Shown one piece after another: positions 35,374 to 46,421 of a stretch of 64,000 nucleotides of DNA. The number at the start of each line of letters is the position of its first letter. Position 1 is the first letter of the stretch. Made by a program: the position numbers and the translations under genes. The DNA is from Geomonas agri (GTDB taxonomy: Bacteria; Desulfobacterota; Desulfuromonadia; Geobacterales; Geobacteraceae). The notes under the pieces are model-generated. The model was not told the DNA's origin, ran no database searches, and was given only the letters and a program-made list of their open reading frames with translations. The DNA is taken from the NCBI RefSeq assembly GCF_020179605.1, contig NZ_JAINZO010000001.1, positions 2,268,799 to 2,332,798 on the forward strand, given 5' to 3'.

Positions 35374-35859
35374 CTAGGCATCTTTCCTTTTCAGTTCAAC
35401 GCCCACCTTGGCCAGTTCCTCGACCACCAGGGCCGCCACCTTCTCGAGCCCTGCCTCAAGGGGCGGGGTGAGCTGGTCGCCCGGGTCGAGCGACTTGGCA
35501 ACGATACCAAAGAAGGTGAGGTCGGGCTTGGGTGCGTCGCGCATCTCAGAGATCAGCAGCATCTCCTGCAAACCGATCTGGTGCGGCGACATCTTGACCG
35601 GTATGTTCTTGAGCATGATGTCTTCGCGCTCGTAGCGGAAGATGTCACCCGGTTCGCCCTTGGCCTGCACCACGTCTACCAGGATGACCTTGTCGGCCTC
35701 CTCGAACTTGAAGTGCACCATAATGCCTAGGGTACCGCCGTCGTAGAGTTCGACGTTCTCCGGGATCTGGTAGTGCTTCTCTAAATGTCGTACGAAATGG
35801 ACGCCGAACCCCTCGTCGGAGAGGATCAGGTTGCCAGCGCCATAGATGAGGACCTGCAT
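35374..35859 (-). CDS. hybP: Hydrogenase maturation protease (HybP/HybD type)
   Basis: The 161-residue endopeptidase has the nickel-sensing residues of the family: Glu16 in LSDEGFGVH, Asp near 62 in VILVDVV and His near 93 in MSPHQIG. It removes the C-terminal peptide of the large subunit after nickel insertion. It begins with TGGAGG upstream and lies 289 bases after hybL. The symbol follows the Geobacter hyb naming. Confidence 0.93.
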   Translation of the reverse strand: MQVLIYGAGNLILSDEGFGVHFVRHLEKHYQIPENVELYDGGTLGIMVHFKFEEADKVILVDVVQAKGEPGDIFRYEREDIMLKNIPVKMSPHQIGLQEMLLISEMRDAPKPDLTFFGIVAKSLDPGDQLTPPLEAGLEKVAALVVEELAKVGVELKRKDA

Positions 35860-36148: not shown

Positions 36149-37828
36149 CTACAGTACCTTGACCTTGGTGATCTCCGCCCCTTCCGGATCCACGGTGTGG
36201 ACGGCGCAGGCGATGCACGGGTCGAAGGAGTGGATGGTACGCAGCACCTCGAGCGGCTTGCTGGCGTCGGCGATGGGGTTGCCCATCAGCGATGCTTCGT
36301 ACGGACCCATCTCGCCCTTGTCGTTTCTCGGTGCCGCGTTCCAGGTGGAAGGAACGACGGCCTGGTAGTTCTCGATCTTCTTGTTCTTGATCACGATCCA
36401 GTGGGACAGGGTGCCGCGCGGAGCCTCGTGGAAGCCGACGCCGCGGTACTCGCCTTTCGGGATCACGGTGTGGTTAGCATAGGTCTGGTCGCCGGAAGCG
36501 ATGTTGGCGATCAGCTTGTCCAGGTTCTCCAGCGACAGGTCGGCCATGACGTGGGCGCGAGCACCGCGGCAGAAGAGACGGCCCATGGTGGAGTGGATGT
36601 CCTTCATGGAGATGCCCAGGGTGGAAACGGCGCCGTCGACGAGTTTCTTGACCTTCGGGTTGCCCGCAGCGTAAGCGGCCATGATCTGAGCCGGCGGACC
36701 GACCTGGACCGGCTTGCCATCGAGGGTCGGAGCCTTGCACCAGGAGTACTTGCCGTTTTCTTTGAAGTCGGTGTAGTCCGGCTTGGTCTCGCCGTCCCAC
36801 GGATGCAGGGTGCCGTTACCCTCGTACCAGGCGTGGGTGACGTTCTCCTTGATGTTCTTGATCAGGTAGTCGTCGCGGTGATCCTTGACCATCCTGATGC
36901 CGCCGATGTTGCCACCCATGACCACGCCGCCCGGGAGCTGGAACTTGGTGTTCTTGGTGTCTTCCGGGAACTCCGGCACCGCCATGTAGTTGGTGACGCC
37001 AGCGCCGTACTTGAACCAGTCCTTGTAGGCACCGGCTATGGCGAGGAGGTCCGGGTAGTAGACCTTCTGGACGAAGTCGCGGGTCTCTTCCATGAGGGTC
37101 CGCAGGTAGATCAGGCGCTCCATGTTAAGGGTCGCGATGTTCTCGGTGTTGATCGCGGTGGCGACGCCGCCAACCACGAGGTTCTGGATGTGCGGGTTCT
37201 TGCCGCCGAGGATCGCGGTGGCCTGGGAAGCCTTCCTCTGGTAGTCGAGGGCCTTCAGGTAGTGGGCGACCGCCATCAGGTTCACTTCCGGGGAAAGTTT
37301 CATCGCCGGGTGGCCCCAGTAGCCGGTAGCGAAGATGCCGAGCTTGCCGCCGGCCACGAAGGCCTTCAGCTTGTCCTGCACTGCCTTGAACTCCTTCTCG
37401 GAGTTGCCCGGCCAGTCGGAGATGCTCTGCGCGATCTGCGCGGTCTTCTTGGGATCGGCCTTCAGCGCGGAGACGATGTCAACCCAGTCCAGCGCGGAGA
37501 GGTGGTAGAAGTGGACAATGTGGTCCTGCACCGAGTGCTGGGCGATCATGATGTTACGGATGTACTGCGCGTTCAGCGGCACTTCCACATCAAGGGCGTG
37601 CTCAACGGCACGGATGGACGAGATGGCGTGTACGGTGGTGCAGACGCCGCAGAAACGCTGTACGAAGCTCCAGGCGTCCTCGGGGGCGCGCCCCTTGAGG
37701 ATGACCTCGATGCCGCGCCACATCTGGGCGGAGGACCAGGCGTTGGTGACCTTGCCGCCGTTTGCTTCGACATCGATCCTCAGATGTCCTTCGATTCGGG
37801 TGATGGGATCAAGCGTGATTCTAGACAT
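36149..37828 (-). CDS. hybL: NiFe hydrogenase large subunit (group 1 uptake, Hyb type)
   Basis: The 559-residue subunit holds the NiFe site: the N-terminal cysteine pair is in RFCGVCTTVH and the C-terminal pair in DPCIACAVH. The predicted HybP cleavage after that His removes the last 15 residues (TVDPEGAEITKVKVL). It starts MSRITLDPITRIEGH. It oxidises hydrogen in the periplasm, carried across with the Tat signal of HybS. GGAGG precedes the ATG. Confidence 0.97.
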   Translation of the reverse strand: MSRITLDPITRIEGHLRIDVEANGGKVTNAWSSAQMWRGIEVILKGRAPEDAWSFVQRFCGVCTTVHAISSIRAVEHALDVEVPLNAQYIRNIMIAQHSVQDHIVHFYHLSALDWVDIVSALKADPKKTAQIAQSISDWPGNSEKEFKAVQDKLKAFVAGGKLGIFATGYWGHPAMKLSPEVNLMAVAHYLKALDYQRKASQATAILGGKNPHIQNLVVGGVATAINTENIATLNMERLIYLRTLMEETRDFVQKVYYPDLLAIAGAYKDWFKYGAGVTNYMAVPEFPEDTKNTKFQLPGGVVMGGNIGGIRMVKDHRDDYLIKNIKENVTHAWYEGNGTLHPWDGETKPDYTDFKENGKYSWCKAPTLDGKPVQVGPPAQIMAAYAAGNPKVKKLVDGAVSTLGISMKDIHSTMGRLFCRGARAHVMADLSLENLDKLIANIASGDQTYANHTVIPKGEYRGVGFHEAPRGTLSHWIVIKNKKIENYQAVVPSTWNAAPRNDKGEMGPYEASLMGNPIADASKPLEVLRTIHSFDPCIACAVHTVDPEGAEITKVKVL

Positions 37829-37862: not shown

Positions 37863-39197
37863 TTAGTGCGCGTGCGCCTCGGTCTGCGGCAGCTTCTCGG
37901 CTGCGCCCCCTTTGTGCTTCTTCGCGTGTCCCTTCTTCTTGTGGGCGCCGTGCAGGTCCATGTTGGGCAGAACCGGGAACAGGGCCACGAAGACCTTGTA
38001 GCCCAGGATCTCAAGGGCCACGATGCCGACCGTGATCATCACCTCGGCGAAGGAGGGGAAGTACTTCCACCCCTGGCCCGGGTTGAAACCGATCAGGTAC
38101 ACGTTGAAGCGGTACAGGGCGCCGCCTAGGACGATCATGGAGGCCGAGATGAAGAGCCAGCGTGCCGACCTTCTGCACTTCTTGACGAAGAGGATCAGCG
38201 AGCCGCAGGCGACCAGCAGGAACTCAGTCATGAACCAACCGGAGTAGAAGTCACCCTTGAGCGCCGCGTGGATCTGGCCGCGGTAGGAAAGATCGCCGAT
38301 GACGACGGTCAGCCAGATCACGGTCACGAACGGGATCAGCCCGGCCAAGCCGGAGAGTTCCTCGATCTCATAGGGACGCTTGAAGGAGTAGCTCGAGATG
38401 ATCGACTCCAGGATGGCGATGGAGTAGCCGATGAAGACGCAGTTCAAGAGGAACAGCAGCGGCAGGAAGCCGGTGTGCCAGAGCGGATGCAGTTTGGTCG
38501 AGGCGATGAGGAGCAGGCTCCCCAGCGAAGACTGGTGCATGGTCGGCAGCGTGATGCCCAGGACGATGAAGAAGATGAGGACCTTGTTCAGACGCGGGTT
38601 GAGCCAGGCAGCGCCCAGACGCACCATCTCCAGCTTGTCCTCCATGGTCTTCTTGTCCGGCGCGATCTTCGGGTGCAGCCAGTTGCGGATCGCGTTCATG
38701 CGGTCCCACTTGCTCTTCTCGATCGAGGTCAGGATCGCCGGGAGGAACTCGAGGATGAGGACCGTGGAGTAGGCCATGACGCAGAGCGCGACCTCGAACA
38801 TGGCGGAGTTCGCCTGCCACTTGCTCGGGATGAAGAAATTGTAGGCGTTCCACGGACGGCCCAGGTCGACCATGACCGAGAAGCCGGCCAGGCCGTAGCC
38901 GAACATGGAGGTGAGGATCGCCGAGCGGATCATCGGGTGGTACTGCATCCTGTTCCTGATGTAGACCAGGATGGCGACCGCGTAGCCGCCGCAGGCGATG
39001 GCCGTGCCGGTAGCGACGTCGTAGGTGATCCAGATGCCCCAGGGGTAGCCGTCGCTCATGTTGGAGACGGCGCCGATGCCTTTCACGTAGCGCACGCCCA
39101 CGAAGTAGAAGCCGAGCAGCACGATGGAGAGGAGGATGAAGAAGGATTTGGTAAAGATCTTACCTTCCAGCTTTTGGTATTCTTCACTGTGTCCCAT
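37863..39197 (-). CDS. hybB: NrfD/HybB-type integral membrane subunit
   Basis: The 444-residue protein has about ten membrane spans and resembles HybB of E. coli hydrogenase 2. It should pass electrons from HybA to menaquinone. The C-terminal tail is His/Lys-rich (KKKGHAKKHKGGAAEK). Its ATG overlaps the hybA stop as TAATG. Confidence 0.92.
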   Translation of the reverse strand: MGHSEEYQKLEGKIFTKSFFILLSIVLLGFYFVGVRYVKGIGAVSNMSDGYPWGIWITYDVATGTAIACGGYAVAILVYIRNRMQYHPMIRSAILTSMFGYGLAGFSVMVDLGRPWNAYNFFIPSKWQANSAMFEVALCVMAYSTVLILEFLPAILTSIEKSKWDRMNAIRNWLHPKIAPDKKTMEDKLEMVRLGAAWLNPRLNKVLIFFIVLGITLPTMHQSSLGSLLLIASTKLHPLWHTGFLPLLFLLNCVFIGYSIAILESIISSYSFKRPYEIEELSGLAGLIPFVTVIWLTVVIGDLSYRGQIHAALKGDFYSGWFMTEFLLVACGSLILFVKKCRRSARWLFISASMIVLGGALYRFNVYLIGFNPGQGWKYFPSFAEVMITVGIVALEILGYKVFVALFPVLPNMDLHGAHKKKGHAKKHKGGAAEKLPQTEAHAH

Positions 39198-40123
39198 TAC
39201 TTACCCCCCTTCTTGTGATCGTCGTCGTGCCCCTGGTGTTTCTTCATGTTCTTCACCGCGATGAAGCAGAGGGTGCTGTACAGGGCCACTGGGGCGATGA
39301 AACCCTTGTAGATGGTGTGCTGGATCTTCTCGGAGAACTCGGCCGGGGCTTCCGGCTTGATCTCGGGGAGACCGAGCTTGTTGAACGGCATGGAGGCCAG
39401 GTAGAGGTGGTTGGTGCCCCCCCCTTCGTGCTCGCCGTAGACGTGGGCGACGTACTTGTCGGGCGCGTCCTTGAGCCTCTGATGCGCTTCCTCCAGCAGG
39501 TCCTTCCTCTTGCCGAACTTGATGGCGCCCGCCGGGCAAGTCTCGGCGCAGGCCGTGATCCCCTTCTCGCGCAGGTTGGTCGCCTTGCACAGGTCGCACT
39601 TGACGATCTGCGGCACCGCCTTCTCCCACTGGAATTTCGGAATGTTGTACGGGCAGGCGATCTGGCAGTAGCGGCAGCCGATGCAGGTGTTCTTGTTGTA
39701 GTCGACGATGCCGGAGACCTTCTCCTTGGTCATGGCCGAAACCGGGCAGACCGAAACGCAGGAGGGTTTTTGGCAGTGCATGCAGGAGTACTTCACGTAG
39801 CTCCAGCGCTTCTCGCTCTCCTTGAAGAGCTTGATAAGGGTACGGGTCGAGCCGGAGAGGTCGCTCGGGGCATCCCACAGGCCGTCCTCGTCGAACTTCG
39901 CCTTTTCGTAGGAGAGTGAGCCGTAGTCGGAATTGACCCTCTTGCAGGCCGACATGCACGCCTTGCAGCCGACGCACTTGGTGGCGTCGTAGAGCATGCC
40001 GAGTTCGTCGTTGTTGACCTGGAGTCCCTCGTTGGCCAGAGCGTTACCCGTGCCGCAGGCCAGAAGGCCCGCGCCGGTTGCGCCGGCCAGCTTCAGGAAA
40101 TCGCGTCTACTTGTCTTTTTCAT
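39197..40123 (-). CDS. hybA: HybA-type four-cluster ferredoxin subunit
   Basis: The 308-residue protein has a Tat signal (SRRDFLKLAG), four cysteine-rich [4Fe-4S] blocks (CVGCKACMSACKRVN, CMHCQKPSCVSVCP, CIGCRYCQIACPYN, CDLCKATNLREKGITACAETCP) and a C-terminal membrane helix (PVALYSTLCFIAV). It links HybS to HybB. The ATG at 40123 has AGGAGG six bases upstream; the frame to 40192 is an extension into hybS. It overlaps hybS by 17 bases. Confidence 0.94.
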   Translation of the reverse strand: MKKTSRRDFLKLAGATGAGLLACGTGNALANEGLQVNNDELGMLYDATKCVGCKACMSACKRVNSDYGSLSYEKAKFDEDGLWDAPSDLSGSTRTLIKLFKESEKRWSYVKYSCMHCQKPSCVSVCPVSAMTKEKVSGIVDYNKNTCIGCRYCQIACPYNIPKFQWEKAVPQIVKCDLCKATNLREKGITACAETCPAGAIKFGKRKDLLEEAHQRLKDAPDKYVAHVYGEHEGGGTNHLYLASMPFNKLGLPEIKPEAPAEFSEKIQHTIYKGFIAPVALYSTLCFIAVKNMKKHQGHDDDHKKGGK

Positions 40124-41216
40124 GGGCATCCTCCTGCGCCTCACCGCCCGGAAGCTTCTTGGCGAGCATCGCGCCGGCGCCAAGTGCCGCACCTGCCGCG
40201 AGACCGACGAAGCCGGTGGTCAGCGGGTCCGGACCCTTTCCTTTTTCCTTCAGGTCCACCGGGGCGTAGCTGTCGAACGGCGTCGGCTCGTGGATCTGCA
40301 CCTTCTCGGCGATAGCGGTCTTGAAAAGGATGTCCGGCTCGGTGCAGCCGATGCAGGGGTGACCGATGGACACCGGCCAGGCGCCCACGTCGTTGAAGCG
40401 CTGTACGGAGCAGTTGGCGTAGGTGGCGGGACCTTTGCAGCCCAGCTTGTAGAGGCAGTAGCCCTGGGCGTGGGTCGGGTCGCCGTACGCCTTGGCGAAG
40501 CGGCCGGCGTCGAAGTGCGGGCGACGCTCGCAGTGCTCGTGAATCCTCCTGCCGTAGGCGAACTTCGGGCGGCCCAGCTGATCGAGCTCGGGCAGCTTCT
40601 TGAAGGTCAGGTAGTACAGCACGGTGGACAGGAAGTTGTAGGGGTTGGGGGGGCAGCCGGGGATGTTGATGATCGGCTTGTCCTTGATGATGTCCTTCAC
40701 GCCGACCGCGCCGGTCGGGTTCGGGGAAACGGACTGGATGCCGCCGTAGGAAGCGCAGGTGCCGATGGCGATGATGGCCGCGGCCCCTTCGGCCGCATGC
40801 TGCAGCGATTCGAGGGCGGTCTTGCCGGAGACCTTGCAGAAGATGCCGTTCTGCTTGGTCGGGATGGCGCCTTCCACGACCAGGATGTACTTGCCGTGGT
40901 TGGCCTTCATGGAGTCATGGAGCGCCTGCTCGGCCTGGTGACCGGCGCCAACCATGAGCGTCTCGTGGTAGTCCAGCGAGATCATGTCCAGGATCAACGT
41001 GGAGATGGTCGGGTGGGACGAACGCAGCAGCGACTCCGAGCAGCCGGTGCACTCCTGGAAATGGAGCCAGATCACCGCAGGGTTACCGTTTTTCTCAACG
41101 GCCTCGGCCACCTGCGTATGCATGGCGAAGGGAAGCCCCATCATCGCGGTGGCGGTGACACAGGCCTTCATGAAACTCCTGCGGGTGACCCCTTCGCAAA
41201 ACATCTCTTCTTTCAT
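40107..41216 (-). CDS. hybS: NiFe hydrogenase small subunit
   Basis: The 369-residue subunit has a Tat signal (TRRSFMKACVTATAMMG) and the iron-sulfur ligands for three clusters: ECTGCSES, GTCASYGG, INIPGCPPNP, HEHCERRPH, GYCLYKLGCKGP, TYANCSVQRF and GHPCIGCTEP. A C-terminal hydrophobic helix (GFVGLAAGAALGAGAML) anchors it to the periplasmic face. It is the first gene of the hyb operon, downstream of a sigma-54 promoter, with GAGGAGG before the ATG. Confidence 0.97.
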   Translation of the reverse strand: MKEEMFCEGVTRRSFMKACVTATAMMGLPFAMHTQVAEAVEKNGNPAVIWLHFQECTGCSESLLRSSHPTISTLILDMISLDYHETLMVGAGHQAEQALHDSMKANHGKYILVVEGAIPTKQNGIFCKVSGKTALESLQHAAEGAAAIIAIGTCASYGGIQSVSPNPTGAVGVKDIIKDKPIINIPGCPPNPYNFLSTVLYYLTFKKLPELDQLGRPKFAYGRRIHEHCERRPHFDAGRFAKAYGDPTHAQGYCLYKLGCKGPATYANCSVQRFNDVGAWPVSIGHPCIGCTEPDILFKTAIAEKVQIHEPTPFDSYAPVDLKEKGKGPDPLTTGFVGLAAGAALGAGAMLAKKLPGGEAQEDAHEKDK

Positions 41217-41254
41217 AACAAGCCTCCTCGAGATAAATCAAACCGCCCGTATAC

Positions 41255-41270
41255 GGCAACACCCGTGCCA
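41255..41270 (-). promoter_or_regulatory. Sigma-54 promoter of the hyb operon
   Basis: On the minus strand the sequence reads TGGCACGGGTGTTGCC, an exact match to TGGCACGN4TTGC with the right spacing. The -24 GG is at 41269-41268 and the -12 GC at 41257-41256. It lies 39 bases upstream of the hybS ATG. Confidence 0.85.
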
Positions 41271-41317
41271 ACCCGGTAAACAAAATTTGAAATTGTAATA
41301 CATTGTAATCATTGGAC

Positions 41318-41356
41318 AAAAAAAATGGCGCCTGCGGAAGCTCTCCGCACGGCGCC
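41318..41356 (-). terminator. Rho-independent terminator downstream of hypA
   Basis: The stem GGCGCC plus TGCGGA pairs with TCCGCA plus GGCGCC around an AGCTC loop, with one bulged base. On the minus strand it is followed by ATTTTTTTT. It isolates hypA transcription from the hyb promoter. Confidence 0.85.
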
Positions 41357-41403
41357 TTTGGTTGCTTCATTTTGTTGGGTACTTCTGTCCCGGTTTTGTA
41401 TCA

Positions 41404-41427
41404 TTTTGTCCCAAGGGCGGGACAAAA
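41404..41427. promoter_or_regulatory. Palindromic enhancer-like site upstream of the hyb promoter
   Basis: TTTTGTCCC-N6-GGGACAAAA is a perfect 9+9 inverted repeat centred about 147 bases upstream of the -24 element, the normal distance for a sigma-54 enhancer. A related half-site TTCTGTCCC lies at 41383-41391 and GGACAAAA at 41314-41321. The proposed binder is the NtrC-family protein coded nearby (inference). Confidence 0.6.
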
Positions 41428-41465
41428 GGAGAAAAGGGTACGGGCACCTGAGGAGCCAGTCCCCG

Positions 41466-41798
41466 TCAGGCCAGCTCCAGTTCCTTCACCCTCAACTCCT
41501 CACCCGATACGATGGCGAGGCCGAAGGCGCCGCACCCGGGACAGGGGGAGAAGAGGCTTTGCAGGGGAAATTCGCCGTGGCAGGCGGGACAGGTCCCCCG
41601 GCCCGGCACCTCCTCGATGGTGAGCTTGGCTCCCTCCAGCAGGGTGCCCTTGGTGCAGGCCTCGAAGCAGAATTCCACGCTCTCGGGCACCACCCCGGAC
41701 AGCTCCCCTATCTCGAGAACCACCTCTATAACTTTGCGCCCTGCGGCGTGTCCCTCGCATATCTCCACCACGCTCTGGGTTATGCTCATCTCGTGCAT
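41466..41798 (-). CDS. hypA: Hydrogenase nickel incorporation protein HypA
   Basis: The 110-residue protein begins MHEMSITQSVVE, with the nickel-binding His2, and has the zinc site CPAC and CPGC. It delivers nickel with HypB. GGAGG precedes the ATG at 41798; the frame to 41852 is too long. It lies 64 bases after the histidine kinase gene and is followed by a terminator, so it is separate from the hyb/hyp unit. Confidence 0.95.
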   Translation of the reverse strand: MHEMSITQSVVEICEGHAAGRKVIEVVLEIGELSGVVPESVEFCFEACTKGTLLEGAKLTIEEVPGRGTCPACHGEFPLQSLFSPCPGCGAFGLAIVSGEELRVKELELA

Positions 41799-41862
41799 GC
41801 CCGCCTCCGATTTTAATGTGGAGGGATGATAGCAGATCGGACCGCGCAGCAAAAGGGGCTTT

Positions 41863-42783
41863 TCATGTGATGCACGACTGCAGCGTGAAGAAGAAGGTCG
41901 CCCCCCTGTCCACCTCCCCTTCGGCCCAGATGCGCCCGCCGTGGCGGTTTATAATACGCTGCACGGTGGTGAGGCCGATGCCGTTGCCGGGGAACTCGCT
42001 GGAGCTGTGCAGGCGCTGGAAGGCATGGAACATCCTTTCCGCGTTGGCCATGTCAAAGCCAATGCCGTTGTCCTTCACGAAACAGGTCTTGTCCGAGGCA
42101 CTCTCCTGGGCTCCGAACTCGATACGGGCTACATCGCGCATCTGAGTGAATTTCCAAGCGTTTCTCAGTAGGTTCTTCATGGCGATCTCGAGCAGGTTCT
42201 GGTCGCCGAAGGTGCGGATCCTGGGCTGGATCAGGAACTCCACCTTGCGCTCCGGGGTCCCCTGCGCCAGGTCGGCCGCGGTGTCGCTGACGATCTCGGA
42301 GAGATCGACCACCTCCCGTTTCAGACTCAGGTAGGAGAGCTGCGAAAGTTGCAGCAGCGCCTCGATCAGGTCGTTCATGTGCTGGCTCGACTTGAAGATG
42401 CGCTCCAGGTAGTCCATCCCCTCCAGGTCGAGCATGCCGGCGTACTGCTCCTGCAGGGCACGGGTGAAGCCGCAGATCCTCCTTAAGGGAGCACACAGGT
42501 CGTGGGCCACCGAGTAGTTGAAAGCCTCCAGATCCCGGTTGATCGATTCCAGCCGTTCGGTCTGCTCGGTGAGCAGGCGTTCCACCTGCTGGGTCAGCAG
42601 GCTGATCTCCTCATTGTTGGGCCGCTCCTGGAGCATGTTGCGTATCGTCTCCAGGGAGGTGTGGACTGCCGATTTGAGATCTACCGCGTAAGAGGCGTTC
42701 AGCATGCTGGACGCTATTTCCTTATCTATGGTCAAATACCGGCCCTCCCCGTTGTTTCTCTTTGCCTTGTACGCATCGGTCAT
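41863..42783 (-). CDS. Sensor histidine kinase (soluble)
   Basis: The 306-residue kinase has an N-terminal coiled-coil region, a dimerisation/H-box FNYSVAHDLCAPLRRI with the phosphorylated His near residue 94, and an HATPase domain with N-box LLRNAWKFT, G1 VKDNGIGFD and G2 GNGIGLTTVQRI. There is no transmembrane segment, PAS or receiver. It starts MTDAYKAKR at 42783 with AGGGGG. It lies between hypA and the NtrC-type regulator and could phosphorylate the latter. Confidence 0.85.
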   Translation of the reverse strand: MTDAYKAKRNNGEGRYLTIDKEIASSMLNASYAVDLKSAVHTSLETIRNMLQERPNNEEISLLTQQVERLLTEQTERLESINRDLEAFNYSVAHDLCAPLRRICGFTRALQEQYAGMLDLEGMDYLERIFKSSQHMNDLIEALLQLSQLSYLSLKREVVDLSEIVSDTAADLAQGTPERKVEFLIQPRIRTFGDQNLLEIAMKNLLRNAWKFTQMRDVARIEFGAQESASDKTCFVKDNGIGFDMANAERMFHAFQRLHSSSEFPGNGIGLTTVQRIINRHGGRIWAEGEVDRGATFFFTLQSCIT

Positions 42784-43137
42784 GGGGCACCCCCTGTTGA
42801 CCTGCACCCCCCAAGGGGGCTCGCCCGGGGACGCCTGCCCGTGCACCTGGAACCGGCCGCTGCCGGTCTCCCGGGACGACGTCCCTACAAACTCAAAATC
42901 CCATTCCTCGCCACTGCCGCAGGCTCCCTCCTGTTACTTCAGCAGCAACCATGCCCACCTCCTCCGCCTGGCTACTCCCTGCTCTTTCAGCCACTTATTC
43001 GGATCAGCCTCGCAGCGGCACACCGGGGGCGGCAATAAAGGTTTACCTCTTTCATGGCGGATGGCGCCGGGGCCTTGCTGTGGGCGGGTGTCAGGCAGGC
43101 AACGTTTGTGGCAGGTGCAACGTTTGTTGCAGACGGG
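42784..43137. other. 354-base region between NtrC-type regulator and kinase genes
   Basis: No recognised gene is present. It includes two tandem palindromic motifs directly after the regulator stop, GC-rich hairpin-forming DNA near 42815-42880, and an open minus-strand frame (about 42945-43110) with a short C-terminal basic tail but no ATG or ribosome site. No sigma-54 promoter with right spacing was found. Confidence 0.5.
43099..43132. repeat. Tandem pair of 16-bp palindromic motifs
   Basis: GCAACGTTTGTGGCAG (43099-43114) and GCAACGTTTGTTGCAG (43117-43132) differ at one base and are spaced by an 18-base period. The second contains the inverted repeat TGCAAC-N4-GTTGCA. A tandem palindrome of this kind suits a dimeric regulator. 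Confidence 0.7.
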
Positions 43138-44505
43138 TCAGGCCGATTTCCTCCTGAGCCGGTTGTTGAGGGCTTGCCTGGAGATTCCTAGCAGACTCGC
43201 GGCCTCGCCCTGGTTACCGTTGGACATCCGCAGCGCCTCGCTGATCAGGTGCGATTGCGCTTCCTTTATGCTAGGAAAACCGTTGAAGATGACGGTGACG
43301 ACCTCGTGCCCCTCCACGGTGAGCCCTTTGCCGAAGGGGACGCTCATGTTGGAACGGAAAGCCGCCACGGTAAGCGGACCCTTCTCGTGCAGGGCGACCG
43401 CGTCATAGACCATGGCCTGCAGCTCGCGCACGTTGCCCGGGAAGTGGTATTGCTGCAACAACCGCGGCAGCTCCAAGGGGTACCAGGGGCGTTTTTTGCC
43501 CATTTGCCGGGAAGCCAGGGTCACGAAATGCTCCAACAGCAGGGGAATGTCCCCCGGCCTCTCCCTGAGCGGCGGGATGTGGAGCCGGTGGCAACTGAGC
43601 CGGTAATAGAGGTCTTCGCGCAACTTTCCCTGTTCCAGGAGCAGTTTCAGGTCCCGGTTGGTGGCCACCACGATACCGGCGTCCGTTTTCGCCGCCACAT
43701 CTGACCCCAGCGGCAGGTACTCGTGTTCCTGGATCAGCCGCAGCAGCTTCACCTGGGCCTCCTCGCGCAGGTCGCCGATCTCGTCCAGGAACAGGGTCCC
43801 CCCCGCGGCCTTCCTAATCAGCCCCTCGCGGTTTTCCTGCGCGCTGGTGAAGGCCCCCTTGCGGTGGCCGAAGAGGGTGTCGGAGAAGACGGCGTCGTCG
43901 AGTCCCGCCACGTTCACCGTCACTAGCTCTCCTTTCTTCCCCGAACAGCGGTGTACTGCCTCGGCGAACAGTTCTTTGCCGACGCCGGTCTCCCCGGTGA
44001 TCAGCACTGGCTGGCCGCTGTGGGAGACTGCCTGAGCCCTTTTCATGAGCCTCAGCATCTGCGGGTCCTCGGTGACGATGTCGGGGAACGGCATGCGCCG
44101 CCAGCGCAGCCGGTGCTCCTCCGCCGGGGGACCGAGGGCACGGTCAATTGCCGCGAGGAAGAGCGCGTTGTCGATCGGTTTCAAGAGGTAGTCGCAGGCA
44201 CCGGCGCGCATGCAGGATACCGCCTGCCCCACTTCCGCCATGCCGGTGATGATCAGTACCGGCAGGTGCGGGAACTCTTCCACCAGGCGCGGCAACAGGT
44301 CGCGGCCGGTCACGTTGGGCAGCGCCAGGTCCAGGACCACCAGGGCCGCTTCGTTGCGGCGCAGGTAGGGAAGCAGCCCATCGCCGTCATCGAAGGTCAG
44401 CACCGGCCCGACACCGTGTCCCTGCAAAAGTGCCCGGTAGATCTGCAGCATGTCCTGATCGTCGTCCACCACCACTACCGGCAGCGTCGCGTCCTTGCTT
44501 TTCAT
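43138..44505 (-). CDS. NtrC-family sigma-54-dependent response regulator
   Basis: The 455-residue protein has a receiver (Asp near 58 in VVLDLALPNVTGRD, Lys in YLLKPID), an AAA+ domain with Walker A GETGVGKE, Walker B GGTLFLDEIGD and arginine finger LREDLYYRL, and a Fis-type tail (EAASLLGISRQALNNRLRRK). The sigma-54 contact loop reads GAFTSA instead of GAFTGA. It activates sigma-54 promoters; the hyb promoter is a likely local target. Its ATG lies just inside the end of the frameshifted upstream kinase gene. Confidence 0.92.
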   Translation of the reverse strand: MKSKDATLPVVVVDDDQDMLQIYRALLQGHGVGPVLTFDDGDGLLPYLRRNEAALVVLDLALPNVTGRDLLPRLVEEFPHLPVLIITGMAEVGQAVSCMRAGACDYLLKPIDNALFLAAIDRALGPPAEEHRLRWRRMPFPDIVTEDPQMLRLMKRAQAVSHSGQPVLITGETGVGKELFAEAVHRCSGKKGELVTVNVAGLDDAVFSDTLFGHRKGAFTSAQENREGLIRKAAGGTLFLDEIGDLREEAQVKLLRLIQEHEYLPLGSDVAAKTDAGIVVATNRDLKLLLEQGKLREDLYYRLSCHRLHIPPLRERPGDIPLLLEHFVTLASRQMGKKRPWYPLELPRLLQQYHFPGNVRELQAMVYDAVALHEKGPLTVAAFRSNMSVPFGKGLTVEGHEVVTVIFNGFPSIKEAQSHLISEALRMSNGNQGEAASLLGISRQALNNRLRRKSA

Positions 44506-46376
44506 GACCAGCCTCTCTGCACGTATGGCGTCGCTAGACCTGGAAGTAGAGGGTCGCCCCCTTCCCGGCCTGCTCCGCGCTCCAAATGCGGCCCCGATGC
44601 AGGTTGCATGATGCGCTGTACCGTGGCCAAGCCGATACCGTGACTCCCCCGCTCGCTAGCGCTGCGCCCGGCCACTTCACGCAGGCTGGTGCTCAACCGG
44701 GGGCCGTTGTCACTCACATAGTAACTGCGCTCTCCCTCGACCTGCGCGGTGCCGAACCTGATCACGGGGTGTTTCACACCGATGGTGCAGTGCCATGCGT
44801 TTTCCAGCAGATGCTCCATCGCCAACCGCAGCATCTCCTTGTCTCCGGTAACGGTGACCCCGTCCTCGATCCGGAAGTCGACCGGGTGCTGGGTCTGGTC
44901 GCTGAGCTGAGCAGCAATCTCCGAAGCCATGGCGCTCAGGTCCACCTCCACCGGCTGCAGTTCCCCCGCCGTCACCGCCGTCATGCGCTCCAGTGCGGCG
45001 ATGGATCCGGAAAGCTCGCACGCGACGGTGCTGATGCGTTCCAGGAGCTCCCGGCCGGGAGGGTCGAGCTGACCTTTATTGAGCTTTTGCAGTCTGCCAC
45101 AATCGCTGGTAATCCGCTCCAGGCGCGTTCCCAGGTCCTGGGACACCGCCTGTCCAATTGCCACCAGTTCCGCGCTGCGCGTCTCCAGCTCCACCTTGAG
45201 GACCCTGAGCCCGCTCTCGGCCTGCACCCGCGAGGTCATGTCCAGCCCGACAATCCAGTTCACCCAGCCGGTGATGGGGACGTAGCGCGAGATGTTGGAC
45301 CAGGAGATGAGCTTGGGGGAGCCGTCCTTGCAGCGCAGGTTCCATTCCCGCCCCCGGTAATCCCCCCCTTGCGGCGGGTGCGCCGATACCACGTCCTCGC
45401 GCAGTGCTCCGTCGACCTGGAGCAGCTCCAGCATTGGCTTGCCCATCACGTCCTCGCTCTTGAAGCCAGAGATGCGCTCGAATTCGTGGTTACAGGCGGC
45501 CAGACGATCGCCATTATCAAAGGCCATCATGATGACTGGCAGGTGCTGCAGGATGGTCTGCAGGCGCCTGCGGTTGGCCAGGAGCGCCTCGTCCTTCTCG
45601 TGGATCTGCTGCTCGTTGGCGCGCAGGGTATCCTCTTCCTGCCAGTTTTCGTAGATCTTGCGAGCGAGGGCCGCGTAGGCCTGCTCCAGTTCCTGCTTGA
45701 CCCGTCCACTTTCCGCCTCCACCATGGTCATGCGCTGGGCGGCGGCGAGGAAGACGTCGAGCTCGCATACCGCCGCCTTCTTACGGTGGGGCAACCCCGG
45801 CGAAATGAAGAGCGGGTTCTGGCACACTCTGCCGCCGCTGACCACCCCCGGGTGGATGCGAGCCAGGTCCAGAAGCAGTTCCGGACTGAACAGGCGCCGA
45901 TTGTACAGGCAAAGCAGGGCAGTGTCCTGCTCCTCGGCAAAGGTGGTCAGGTCACGTTCGAAGCGGTGCAGCAGCTCCAGCGACTTGGGATCTTTAAGTG
46001 CCCACCCCATGTCGCAGATGATCCGCGTTCCGCTGAAACCCTCGCTGGCGGCACCTGAGCAGATGTTGTGCAACAGCTCCATGACCCTGTCCTGCTTAAA
46101 GGTCCCTCCGGTCAGCCAGGCCTGCTTGATCGGTAGCAGGACCAAGGCGCCGGTGTCCTGTTTTTGCACCTCGACCACGCTTTGCAGCAGCCGCTCCAGT
46201 CTGTCCTGTGCGGCATGGAGGTAGACACAGCGCTCCCCTATCGCGATTCCCTTCTGGATAAAGGGGAGCACCAGGTTCAGCAGCTCTGTTTCGTCCTGGT
46301 ACAGCAGGCAGAGGTGATCGTGGCTGTTGACGACTCCGATGTCCGCAATTTCAGGTGCGCTTTTCTCTTCTTCCAT
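44502..46376 (-). CDS. MEDS-PAS sensor kinase, apparently frameshifted near the 3' end
   Basis: The 624-residue frame has a MEDS-like sensory domain (about 15-190, with HDHLCLLYQDETE and IGERCVYL), a coiled coil, a PAS domain (about 295-400) and an HATPase with N-box HLLENAWHCT and G-box SHGIGLATVQRIM. The H-box reads AVSQDLGTRLERI, with Gln in place of the phosphorylated His. After residue 591 the frame leaves the family pattern; removing one T at 44604-44605 gives HRGRIWSAEQAGKGATLYFQ plus V and a stop at 44534. The start at 46376 has AAGGAG. Confidence 0.8.
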   Translation of the reverse strand: MEEEKSAPEIADIGVVNSHDHLCLLYQDETELLNLVLPFIQKGIAIGERCVYLHAAQDRLERLLQSVVEVQKQDTGALVLLPIKQAWLTGGTFKQDRVMELLHNICSGAASEGFSGTRIICDMGWALKDPKSLELLHRFERDLTTFAEEQDTALLCLYNRRLFSPELLLDLARIHPGVVSGGRVCQNPLFISPGLPHRKKAAVCELDVFLAAAQRMTMVEAESGRVKQELEQAYAALARKIYENWQEEDTLRANEQQIHEKDEALLANRRRLQTILQHLPVIMMAFDNGDRLAACNHEFERISGFKSEDVMGKPMLELLQVDGALREDVVSAHPPQGGDYRGREWNLRCKDGSPKLISWSNISRYVPITGWVNWIVGLDMTSRVQAESGLRVLKVELETRSAELVAIGQAVSQDLGTRLERITSDCGRLQKLNKGQLDPPGRELLERISTVACELSGSIAALERMTAVTAGELQPVEVDLSAMASEIAAQLSDQTQHPVDFRIEDGVTVTGDKEMLRLAMEHLLENAWHCTIGVKHPVIRFGTAQVEGERSYYVSDNGPRLSTSLREVAGRSASERGSHGIGLATVQRIMQPASGPHLERGAGREGGDPLLPGLATPYVQRGWS

Positions 46377-46421
46377 CGGGGTTATCTCCTTGCTCGGATT
46401 AACATTAAAAAATACCAACAC

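Follow-up and report, generated by a model that had tools for sequence, protein, structure and literature searches.

A tandem repeat shared by the sigma-54 promoters of hydrogenase and formate dehydrogenase genes in Geomonas agri, with DivRR as its probable reader

The [NiFe]-hydrogenase genes hybSABLP of Geomonas agri are preceded by a conserved sigma-54 promoter and, about 140 bp from it, by a direct tandem repeat that is found again at the sigma-54 promoter of the formate dehydrogenase operon fdn. The promoter and the repeat, their conservation, their spacing, their sharing between the two operons and the linkages of the genes concerned can be read directly from the genomes compared here. 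In the model that is proposed with considerable confidence from these features, DivRR, an NtrC-family response regulator, would activate both promoters through the shared repeat. Hydrogen and formate oxidation would thus probably share one activator.

The hyb promoter and its upstream repeat

The hyb genes lie on the minus strand of the window, i.e. the whole stretch of 64,000 nucleotides that was analysed. They encode the small subunit HybS (40107-41216; TIGR00391 above cut-off, PF01058/PF14720), the iron-sulfur protein HybA (39197-40192; NF008134 above cut-off), the membrane cytochrome b-type subunit HybB (37863-39197; NF008133 above cut-off), the large subunit HybL (36149-37828; PF00374), and the hydrogenase maturation protease HybP (35374-35859; TIGR00072 above cut-off). 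An intergenic region (41217-41465) separates hybS from hypA, which encodes a nickel chaperone and lies on the same strand (41466-41852; TIGR00100 above cut-off). Read along the minus strand, this region carries a palindrome and related sequences, then a G+C-rich hairpin followed by a T run, and then the promoter element TGGCACGGGTGTTGC. The hairpin (41327-41356, minus strand), located between the repeat and the promoter, is a probable intrinsic terminator of the hypA transcript: the surrounding 41310-41372 segment folds with -24.3 kcal/mol (z -3.06), and a simple terminator scan of the sequence missed the hairpin.

The sequence-only reading had placed a TGGCACG-N4-TTGC element directly upstream of hybS, and such an element is indeed present, without a mismatch, at 41256-41270 on the minus strand. 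It begins 54 bp ahead of the hybS start codon and has the GG at -24 and the GC at -12, ten bases apart, within the TGGCAYR-N4-TTGC context. Up to two mismatches, the consensus has 21 matches in the window, where 25.3 would be expected, and TGGCACGGGTGTTGC is the sole one of the 21 without any mismatch. As a consensus match is by itself weak evidence, support for the hyb promoter comes from its conservation. A search for HybS covered 141 genomes of the order, at least 84 of which carry an orthologue of at least 77% identity, and 81 hybS loci were used. Three others (G014, G027, and G048) were left out because they are cut at a contig start, and G010, where HybS residues 3-37 only are present at a contig end, also stands outside the 81. 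Sampling of the order is uneven: the genus of G. agri contributes 19 of the 141 genomes, and another single genus contributes 39. In 72 of the 81 genomes, a -24/-12 element with no more than one mismatch lies upstream of hybS, and in 79 there is one with no more than three, the two failures being G022 and G055. It is thus very likely that the sigma-54 promoter is real and that hybSABLP would be transcribed from it.

Upstream of this promoter, two direct 16-bp units follow each other on the minus strand: unit 1, GGGACAAAATGATACA, at 41397-41412, and unit 2, GGGACAGAAGTACCCA, at 41376-41391. The first is a copy of GGACAAAATGATACA and the second a looser copy, degenerate in its 3' half. The units are 21 bp apart, which would correspond to two helical turns in an enhancer. 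Among 14 aligned genomes of the genus, all columns of unit 1 are identical except one (0.79), and the mean column identity of unit 2 is 99%. With a simple score of at least 23 of 30 as the threshold, the tandem repeat is present in 75 of the 81 hyb upstream regions and in none of 1,620 Markov shuffles. The distance from copy to copy is 20 bp in 56 regions, 21 bp in 15, 19 bp in 2, and 23 bp in 2. In G001-G003, which belong to one genus, the repeat upstream of hyb has the opposite orientation. The other regions below the score are those of G004, for which only 278 bp of upstream DNA is available, of G130 (score 21), and of G055, which has neither repeat nor promoter at hyb though DivRR adjoins fdn there. 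In G022 the repeat is present, whereas the promoter is poor. One unit alone is unspecific: for the single-unit pattern RGACAAAAYGATACA, unit 1 is the sole exact match in its own genome and three more sites have one mismatch, but with one mismatch allowed the pattern also gives control matches in many genomes. As a separate observation, the genome of one order relative (G117) contains 11 RGACAAAAYGATACA matches with at most one mismatch (4 forward and 7 reverse; control 0), the highest number among the genomes tabulated.

From the end of the repeat (unit 1) to the promoter GC, the distance is 109-142 bp in 73 of the 75 regions, with outliers at 270 and 288 bp. The repeat is therefore a conserved site within the 80-200 bp upstream in which an enhancer was sought, and the earlier expectation of a hyb sigma-54 promoter with an activator site 100-200 bp upstream gains support from the conserved promoter and repeat together. 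The per-genus modal distances are 109, 120-121, 130-132, and 139-142 bp, in steps of about 10 bp, as expected of a site held to one face of the helix. In a spacing test on these modes, their regularity was equalled in a fraction of 0.0002 of 5,000 uniform draws, a value that is uncorrected for shared ancestry and that plain clustering also lowers, since the null is a uniform distance. The modal test covers hyb only, and in genera g17 and g25 the mode is one among several distances that each occur once. A spacing test over genus-distance combinations includes seven fdn distances and omits G022 and G024 (poor promoter or distance of 200 bp or more). Taken together, the tandem repeat is probably a conserved enhancer of hyb, acting from about 140 bp in G. 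agri.

The location of the repeat behind hypA and upstream of the terminator-like hairpin could also suggest that the repeat binds a repressor, or functions as RNA within the 3' untranslated region of hypA, instead of being an activator site. This is most improbable: the same repeat stands at DivRR/hyb and DivRR/fdn junctions where no adjoining HypA was detected, its orientation is inverted in G001-G003, and its distance to the promoter falls in roughly helical-turn steps.

DivRR and the formate dehydrogenase promoter

The candidate reader of the enhancer emerges from gene linkage. In 51 of the 81 genomes, the 2.5 kb upstream of hybS contains a divergent gene for an NtrC-family response regulator, DivRR; in one of the 51 (G002), this is only a 43-residue fragment at a contig end, 1.7 kb away. 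At L050, the sole locus read completely, the gene of the divergent regulator is followed by that of a histidine kinase. Of the 81 hyb genomes, 79 have DivRR or a close paralogue at E<=1e-150. The two exceptions are G105, whose DivRR is truncated where the contig ends, and G133, where it is more divergent, at 54% identity. Such a protein is also found in 26 of the other 60 genomes of the order. In G. agri, the best match (70% to the G009 protein) is encoded 1.16 Mb from hyb (G000:C1:1152409-1153773). It comprises a receiver domain (PF00072), an AAA+ domain with the GAFTGA motif (PF00158), and a Fis-type HTH (PF02954); Pfam detected no GAF domain. DivRR falls below the NCBIfam equivalog cut-offs for NtrC, ZraR, and AtoC (TIGR01818, 424.9 versus 558.6). 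The gene of its partner kinase (L108:3422-5410) overlaps the 3' end of the DivRR gene by 4 bases and encodes an sCache_3_3-HAMP-HisKA-HATPase_c protein, in which Pfam detected no PAS domain.

In this genome, DivRR is divergent not from hybS but from fdnG, which encodes the alpha subunit of formate dehydrogenase-N (TIGR01553, 1364.9 bits), with an in-frame TGA read as selenocysteine. The gap between the two genes contains a sigma-54 element, TGGCATGGCAATTGC, and, at 141 bp from it, the tandem TGGACAAAATGTCACA / TTGACAAAACGACGCA. FdnG adjoins DivRR in 24 of the 31 genomes looked at, and in 17 of 18 within the genus. In G053, a second kind of [NiFe]-hydrogenase adjoins DivRR. At fdn of G035 and G041, no more than a weak repeat (21 of 30) is present, and scoring detected no sigma-54 element. 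The hyb repeat is retained where DivRR is unlinked, i.e. in the genus except G043, in G023, and in G050; the repeat would therefore act in trans, and DivRR, with its sCache-HAMP sensor kinase, would activate hyb of G. agri from its distant locus. With one two-component system at both promoters, formate and hydrogen oxidation would be switched on together. It is from sequence that we infer that DivRR binds the repeat, that this binding activates transcription, and what the kinase may sense.

A strict tandem pattern gave 26 matches, one each in 26 of the 141 genomes of the order, and none in 136 further genomes of the class or in the reversed control. Twenty-four of these matches are upstream of hybS; the remaining two are in G010, before the hybS gene cut by the contig end, and in G053, between DivRR and the second [NiFe]-hydrogenase. 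A loose pattern gave 24 matches in 15 of the 19 genomes of the genus, 15 at hyb, 9 at fdn, and none elsewhere, with no match in the reversed control of the genus; in G. agri it detects the fdn and hyb promoters only. Because known sites served to write both patterns, the weight of these counts rests on the absence of matches elsewhere. The loose pattern finds fdn in just 9 of the 19 genus genomes. Upstream of a second HybS-like gene in G009 and G010 (53% and 59% identity), the tandem is present as well. A motif copy, GGCCAAAATGATACA, is also present in G. agri at L110:8439, in surroundings that do not fit a tandem of 20-21 bp.

A close paralogue of DivRR (59-60% identity) is encoded in the same genome (L109:4539-5918, G000:C1:1184038-1185417 or 1184059-1185408), about 1.3 kb from a gene for a cation-transporting P-type ATPase. 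Most genomes of the genus have such a second DivRR-like protein, with two matches in 18 of 19, and orthologue and paralogue were told apart in the G. agri genome only. With its similar HTH (NKSRAAKILEIARRTLDRKI) and an adjoining kinase of the same type as that of DivRR, the paralogue could read the repeat instead of DivRR, or both proteins could do so. This is nevertheless improbable, given that the 11 kb surrounding the paralogue contain no match to the site pattern and that fdn adjoins DivRR, not the paralogue, in this genome.

The local palindrome and other sigma-54 activators

A different activator had been proposed from the sequence alone, namely a neighbouring NtrC-family protein acting with an intact kinase through a palindrome upstream of hybS. 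The palindrome, TTTTGTCCC-N6-GGGACAAAA, is present at 41404-41427 and is perfect. The spacing of about 147 bases given for it agrees with the sequence, within the choice of reference point, and the two related half-sites also exist, one of them being unit 2 of the conserved repeat. With up to three mismatches, the palindrome has a single match in the window (0 in 100 shuffles) and a single place in the whole genome. However, a reversed control of the pattern, with three mismatches at genome scale, matched 2 forward and 2 reverse sites; near-matches to such a palindrome thus arise by chance at this scale.

Conservation does not favour the palindrome as the activator site. Across 14 same-genus genomes aligned with identical spacing, the mean column identity is 61% for its left arm and also 61% for the spacer, as against 98% for the right arm and 100% for the TGATACA that follows. 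The right arm, in minus-strand reading, is the start of unit 1, where the GGACAAAATGATACA copy begins. The palindrome (left arm) is perfect in only 3 of the 14 genomes; all 14 keep the neighbouring regulator, NtrC455, so that 11 have the regulator without a perfect palindrome next to hyb, an outcome that the sequence-only reading had itself named as speaking against it. The palindrome was thus rejected as the hyb enhancer. As its left arm is no better conserved than its spacer and its reversed control has matches, it is best regarded as having been added to unit 1 by chance or locally, or as an added half-site in a few species.

NtrC455 itself (43138-44505, minus strand; Response_reg, Sigma54_activat, and HTH_8 domains) is indeed encoded about 2 kb away. 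The intact kinase attributed to it is another matter, as the neighbouring MEDS-PAS kinase-like protein (44502-46421, minus strand) reads AVSQDLGTR, with Gln for His at the H-box. Among 10 sequences of this protein, 7 have His at this position, 2 have Gln (G. agri and G032), and 1 has Asn (G042). An intact H-box (VAHDL) is found instead in a separate histidine kinase of 327 residues, HK327 (41863-42846, minus strand; HisKA and HATPase_c). NtrC455 is below the NCBIfam TIGR01818 cut-off (313.7 versus 558.6), and it reads GAFTSA where DivRR and its aligned relatives read GAFTGA.

The proximity of NtrC455, its AAA+ and HTH domains, and a perfect palindrome that occurs once in the genome could suggest that NtrC455 binds 41404-41427 and activates hyb locally. 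Besides the low identity of the palindrome's left arm, three lines of evidence make this very improbable. First, NtrC455 orthologues (at least 72% identity) are found in 15 of the 141 genomes, all within the genus (the match in G042 being without the receiver part), as against a repeat that is distributed order-wide; the hyb repeat is kept in members of the genus without NtrC455 (G035, G041, and G043) as well as in many other genera. Second, NtrC455 appears to have a site of its own. Two dyads of the GCAAC-N4-GTTGC type, GCAACAAACGTTGC (43117-43130, minus strand) and GCCACAAACGTTGC (43099-43112, minus strand), lie just past its stop codon and are candidate NtrC455 sites. The paired-dyad pattern, which was written after the sites had been seen, has one match each in 14 of the 19 genus genomes, always just past NtrC455. 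Of the five genomes without it, four have no NtrC455 and the fifth, G034, has the pair at one mismatch; 14 of the 15 genomes with NtrC455 thus carry the exact pair and none of the four without it does. Third, the HTH of NtrC455 is unlike that of DivRR: residues H427, K428, S429, T441, D443, R444, and K445 of DivRR are invariant in 12 homologues and all different in NtrC455, with only R439 and L442 noted as common to both. The regulators divergent from hyb are 30-38% identical to NtrC455.

On distribution, own paired site, and HTH differences, NtrC455 was rejected as the hyb activator, and DivRR is probably the best candidate reader of the hyb repeat. Control of hydrogen uptake by the local pair of palindrome and NtrC protein is not borne out; another enhancer, another activator, and a wider regulon are probable. 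NtrC455 most likely controls HK327 and hypA from its own candidate site, with the palindrome being either incidental or an added half-site. A second candidate sigma-54 promoter, GGGCATGGTTGCTGC (42942-42956, minus strand), is located before HK327-hypA, and a similar sequence is present in the aligned NtrC455-bearing genomes of the genus and in G034. The features at 42942-43130 are thus candidates for a second, genus-restricted sigma-54 switch.

Another putative regulator in this genome has a possible link to hydrogen. A protein of up to 795 aa, encoded at L110:8482-10869 (G000:C2:368981-371368, minus strand), combines a ferredoxin domain, an [FeFe]-hydrogenase large-subunit domain (PF02906), a sigma-54 AAA+ domain, and an HTH, and looks like a hydrogen-sensing sigma-54 activator. 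Three genus genomes were aligned behind its gene and contain one GGMCAAAATGATACA copy and a near palindrome like GTGTGCCAAAAGTGGCGCAC, together with a -24/-12-like element, TGGCACGCATRTAGC, before a 59-aa gene that has only a sub-threshold match to RelB antitoxin. This arrangement resembles that of the enhancer-binding protein (EBP) upstream of GSU3364 (HgtR), as described in the available part of PMC2725144.

Known systems and Geobacter physiology

In its receiver-AAA+-Fis-type HTH architecture, paired kinase, and sigma-54 promoter, the DivRR system is like NtrBC, ZraSR, and AtoSC. These systems also have an upstream enhancer layout. The DivRR system differs from them in its putative targets, a hydrogenase and a formate dehydrogenase, and in its direct-repeat units, which are mostly 20-21 bp apart. 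HupR and HoxA are NtrC-family response regulators that activate [NiFe]-hydrogenase genes in proteobacteria; their partner is a PAS kinase (HoxJ/HupT) coupled to a regulatory hydrogenase (HupUV/HoxBC), and their site is TTG-N5-CAA. By contrast, the partner kinase of DivRR carries sCache and HAMP domains, and the repeat differs from TTG-N5-CAA. In enterobacteria, the sigma-54 activator FhlA ties formate to hydrogenase and formate dehydrogenase genes and binds formate itself through an N-terminal GAF region, whereas DivRR has a receiver domain and, by Pfam, no GAF.

The closest precedent comes from Geobacter sulfurreducens. According to the available part of PMC2725144, its fdnG (GSU0777) promoter, mapped by primer extension, depends on RpoN, and an EBP gene is situated upstream of fdnG. 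There too, a selenocysteine formate dehydrogenase thus has a sigma-54 promoter and an upstream EBP gene; the EBP site and a link to hyb are not described in the part seen of that source, whereas in G. agri one and the same repeat is found at both promoters. A text search of that paper, as far as its text was available, returned no statement on the hyb genes (PMC2725144), and hydrogenase and formate dehydrogenase were likewise absent from the searchable text of the Desulfovibrio sigma-54 regulome (PMC4641369). A literature search for GSU0776 found no paper. In searches mostly without subscription papers, no description of the repeat or of a connection between hyb and the fdn EBP was found, nor, within the sources reached, any account of how hydrogen uptake is switched in iron-reducing Geobacterales.

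Proteomic data, as given in the portion of PMC7894505 that was available, bear on the model. In G. sulfurreducens, hyb carries the locus tags GSU0782-0786, which come next in number to those of fdn. HybL levels on formate exceeded those on acetate 25.6-fold and those on hydrogen 4.7-fold, a result that the authors described as unexpected; FdnG levels on hydrogen exceeded those on acetate 38.8-fold (PMC7894505). A shared activator predicts that both operons are induced by both donors, which is broadly what these data present. For FdnH and FdnI, levels on formate exceeded those on hydrogen (PMC7894505); set against FdnG, this means that subunits of one operon disagree and that the proteomics is uneven. 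Traces of formate were also seen in hydrogen-grown G. sulfurreducens (PMC7894505).

More speculatively, and on balance rather doubtfully, a single formate-sensing two-component system might control hydrogen uptake across the order, hydrogen being sensed only via formate. The sCache kinase would then perceive formate, including the traces made by hydrogen-grown cells, and DivRR would fire the fdn and hyb promoters together. If true, this would account for the higher Hyb levels of G. sulfurreducens on formate than on hydrogen.

The hyb locus also carries a lesson, namely that a search for the nearest regulator plus the best palindrome can mislead. For the Geobacterales, an enhancer and an activator shared by hyb and fdn would offer a simple reason for the high Hyb on formate and the high FdnG on hydrogen in the data available from PMC7894505, and may have a bearing on syntrophy, where hydrogen and formate are exchanged.
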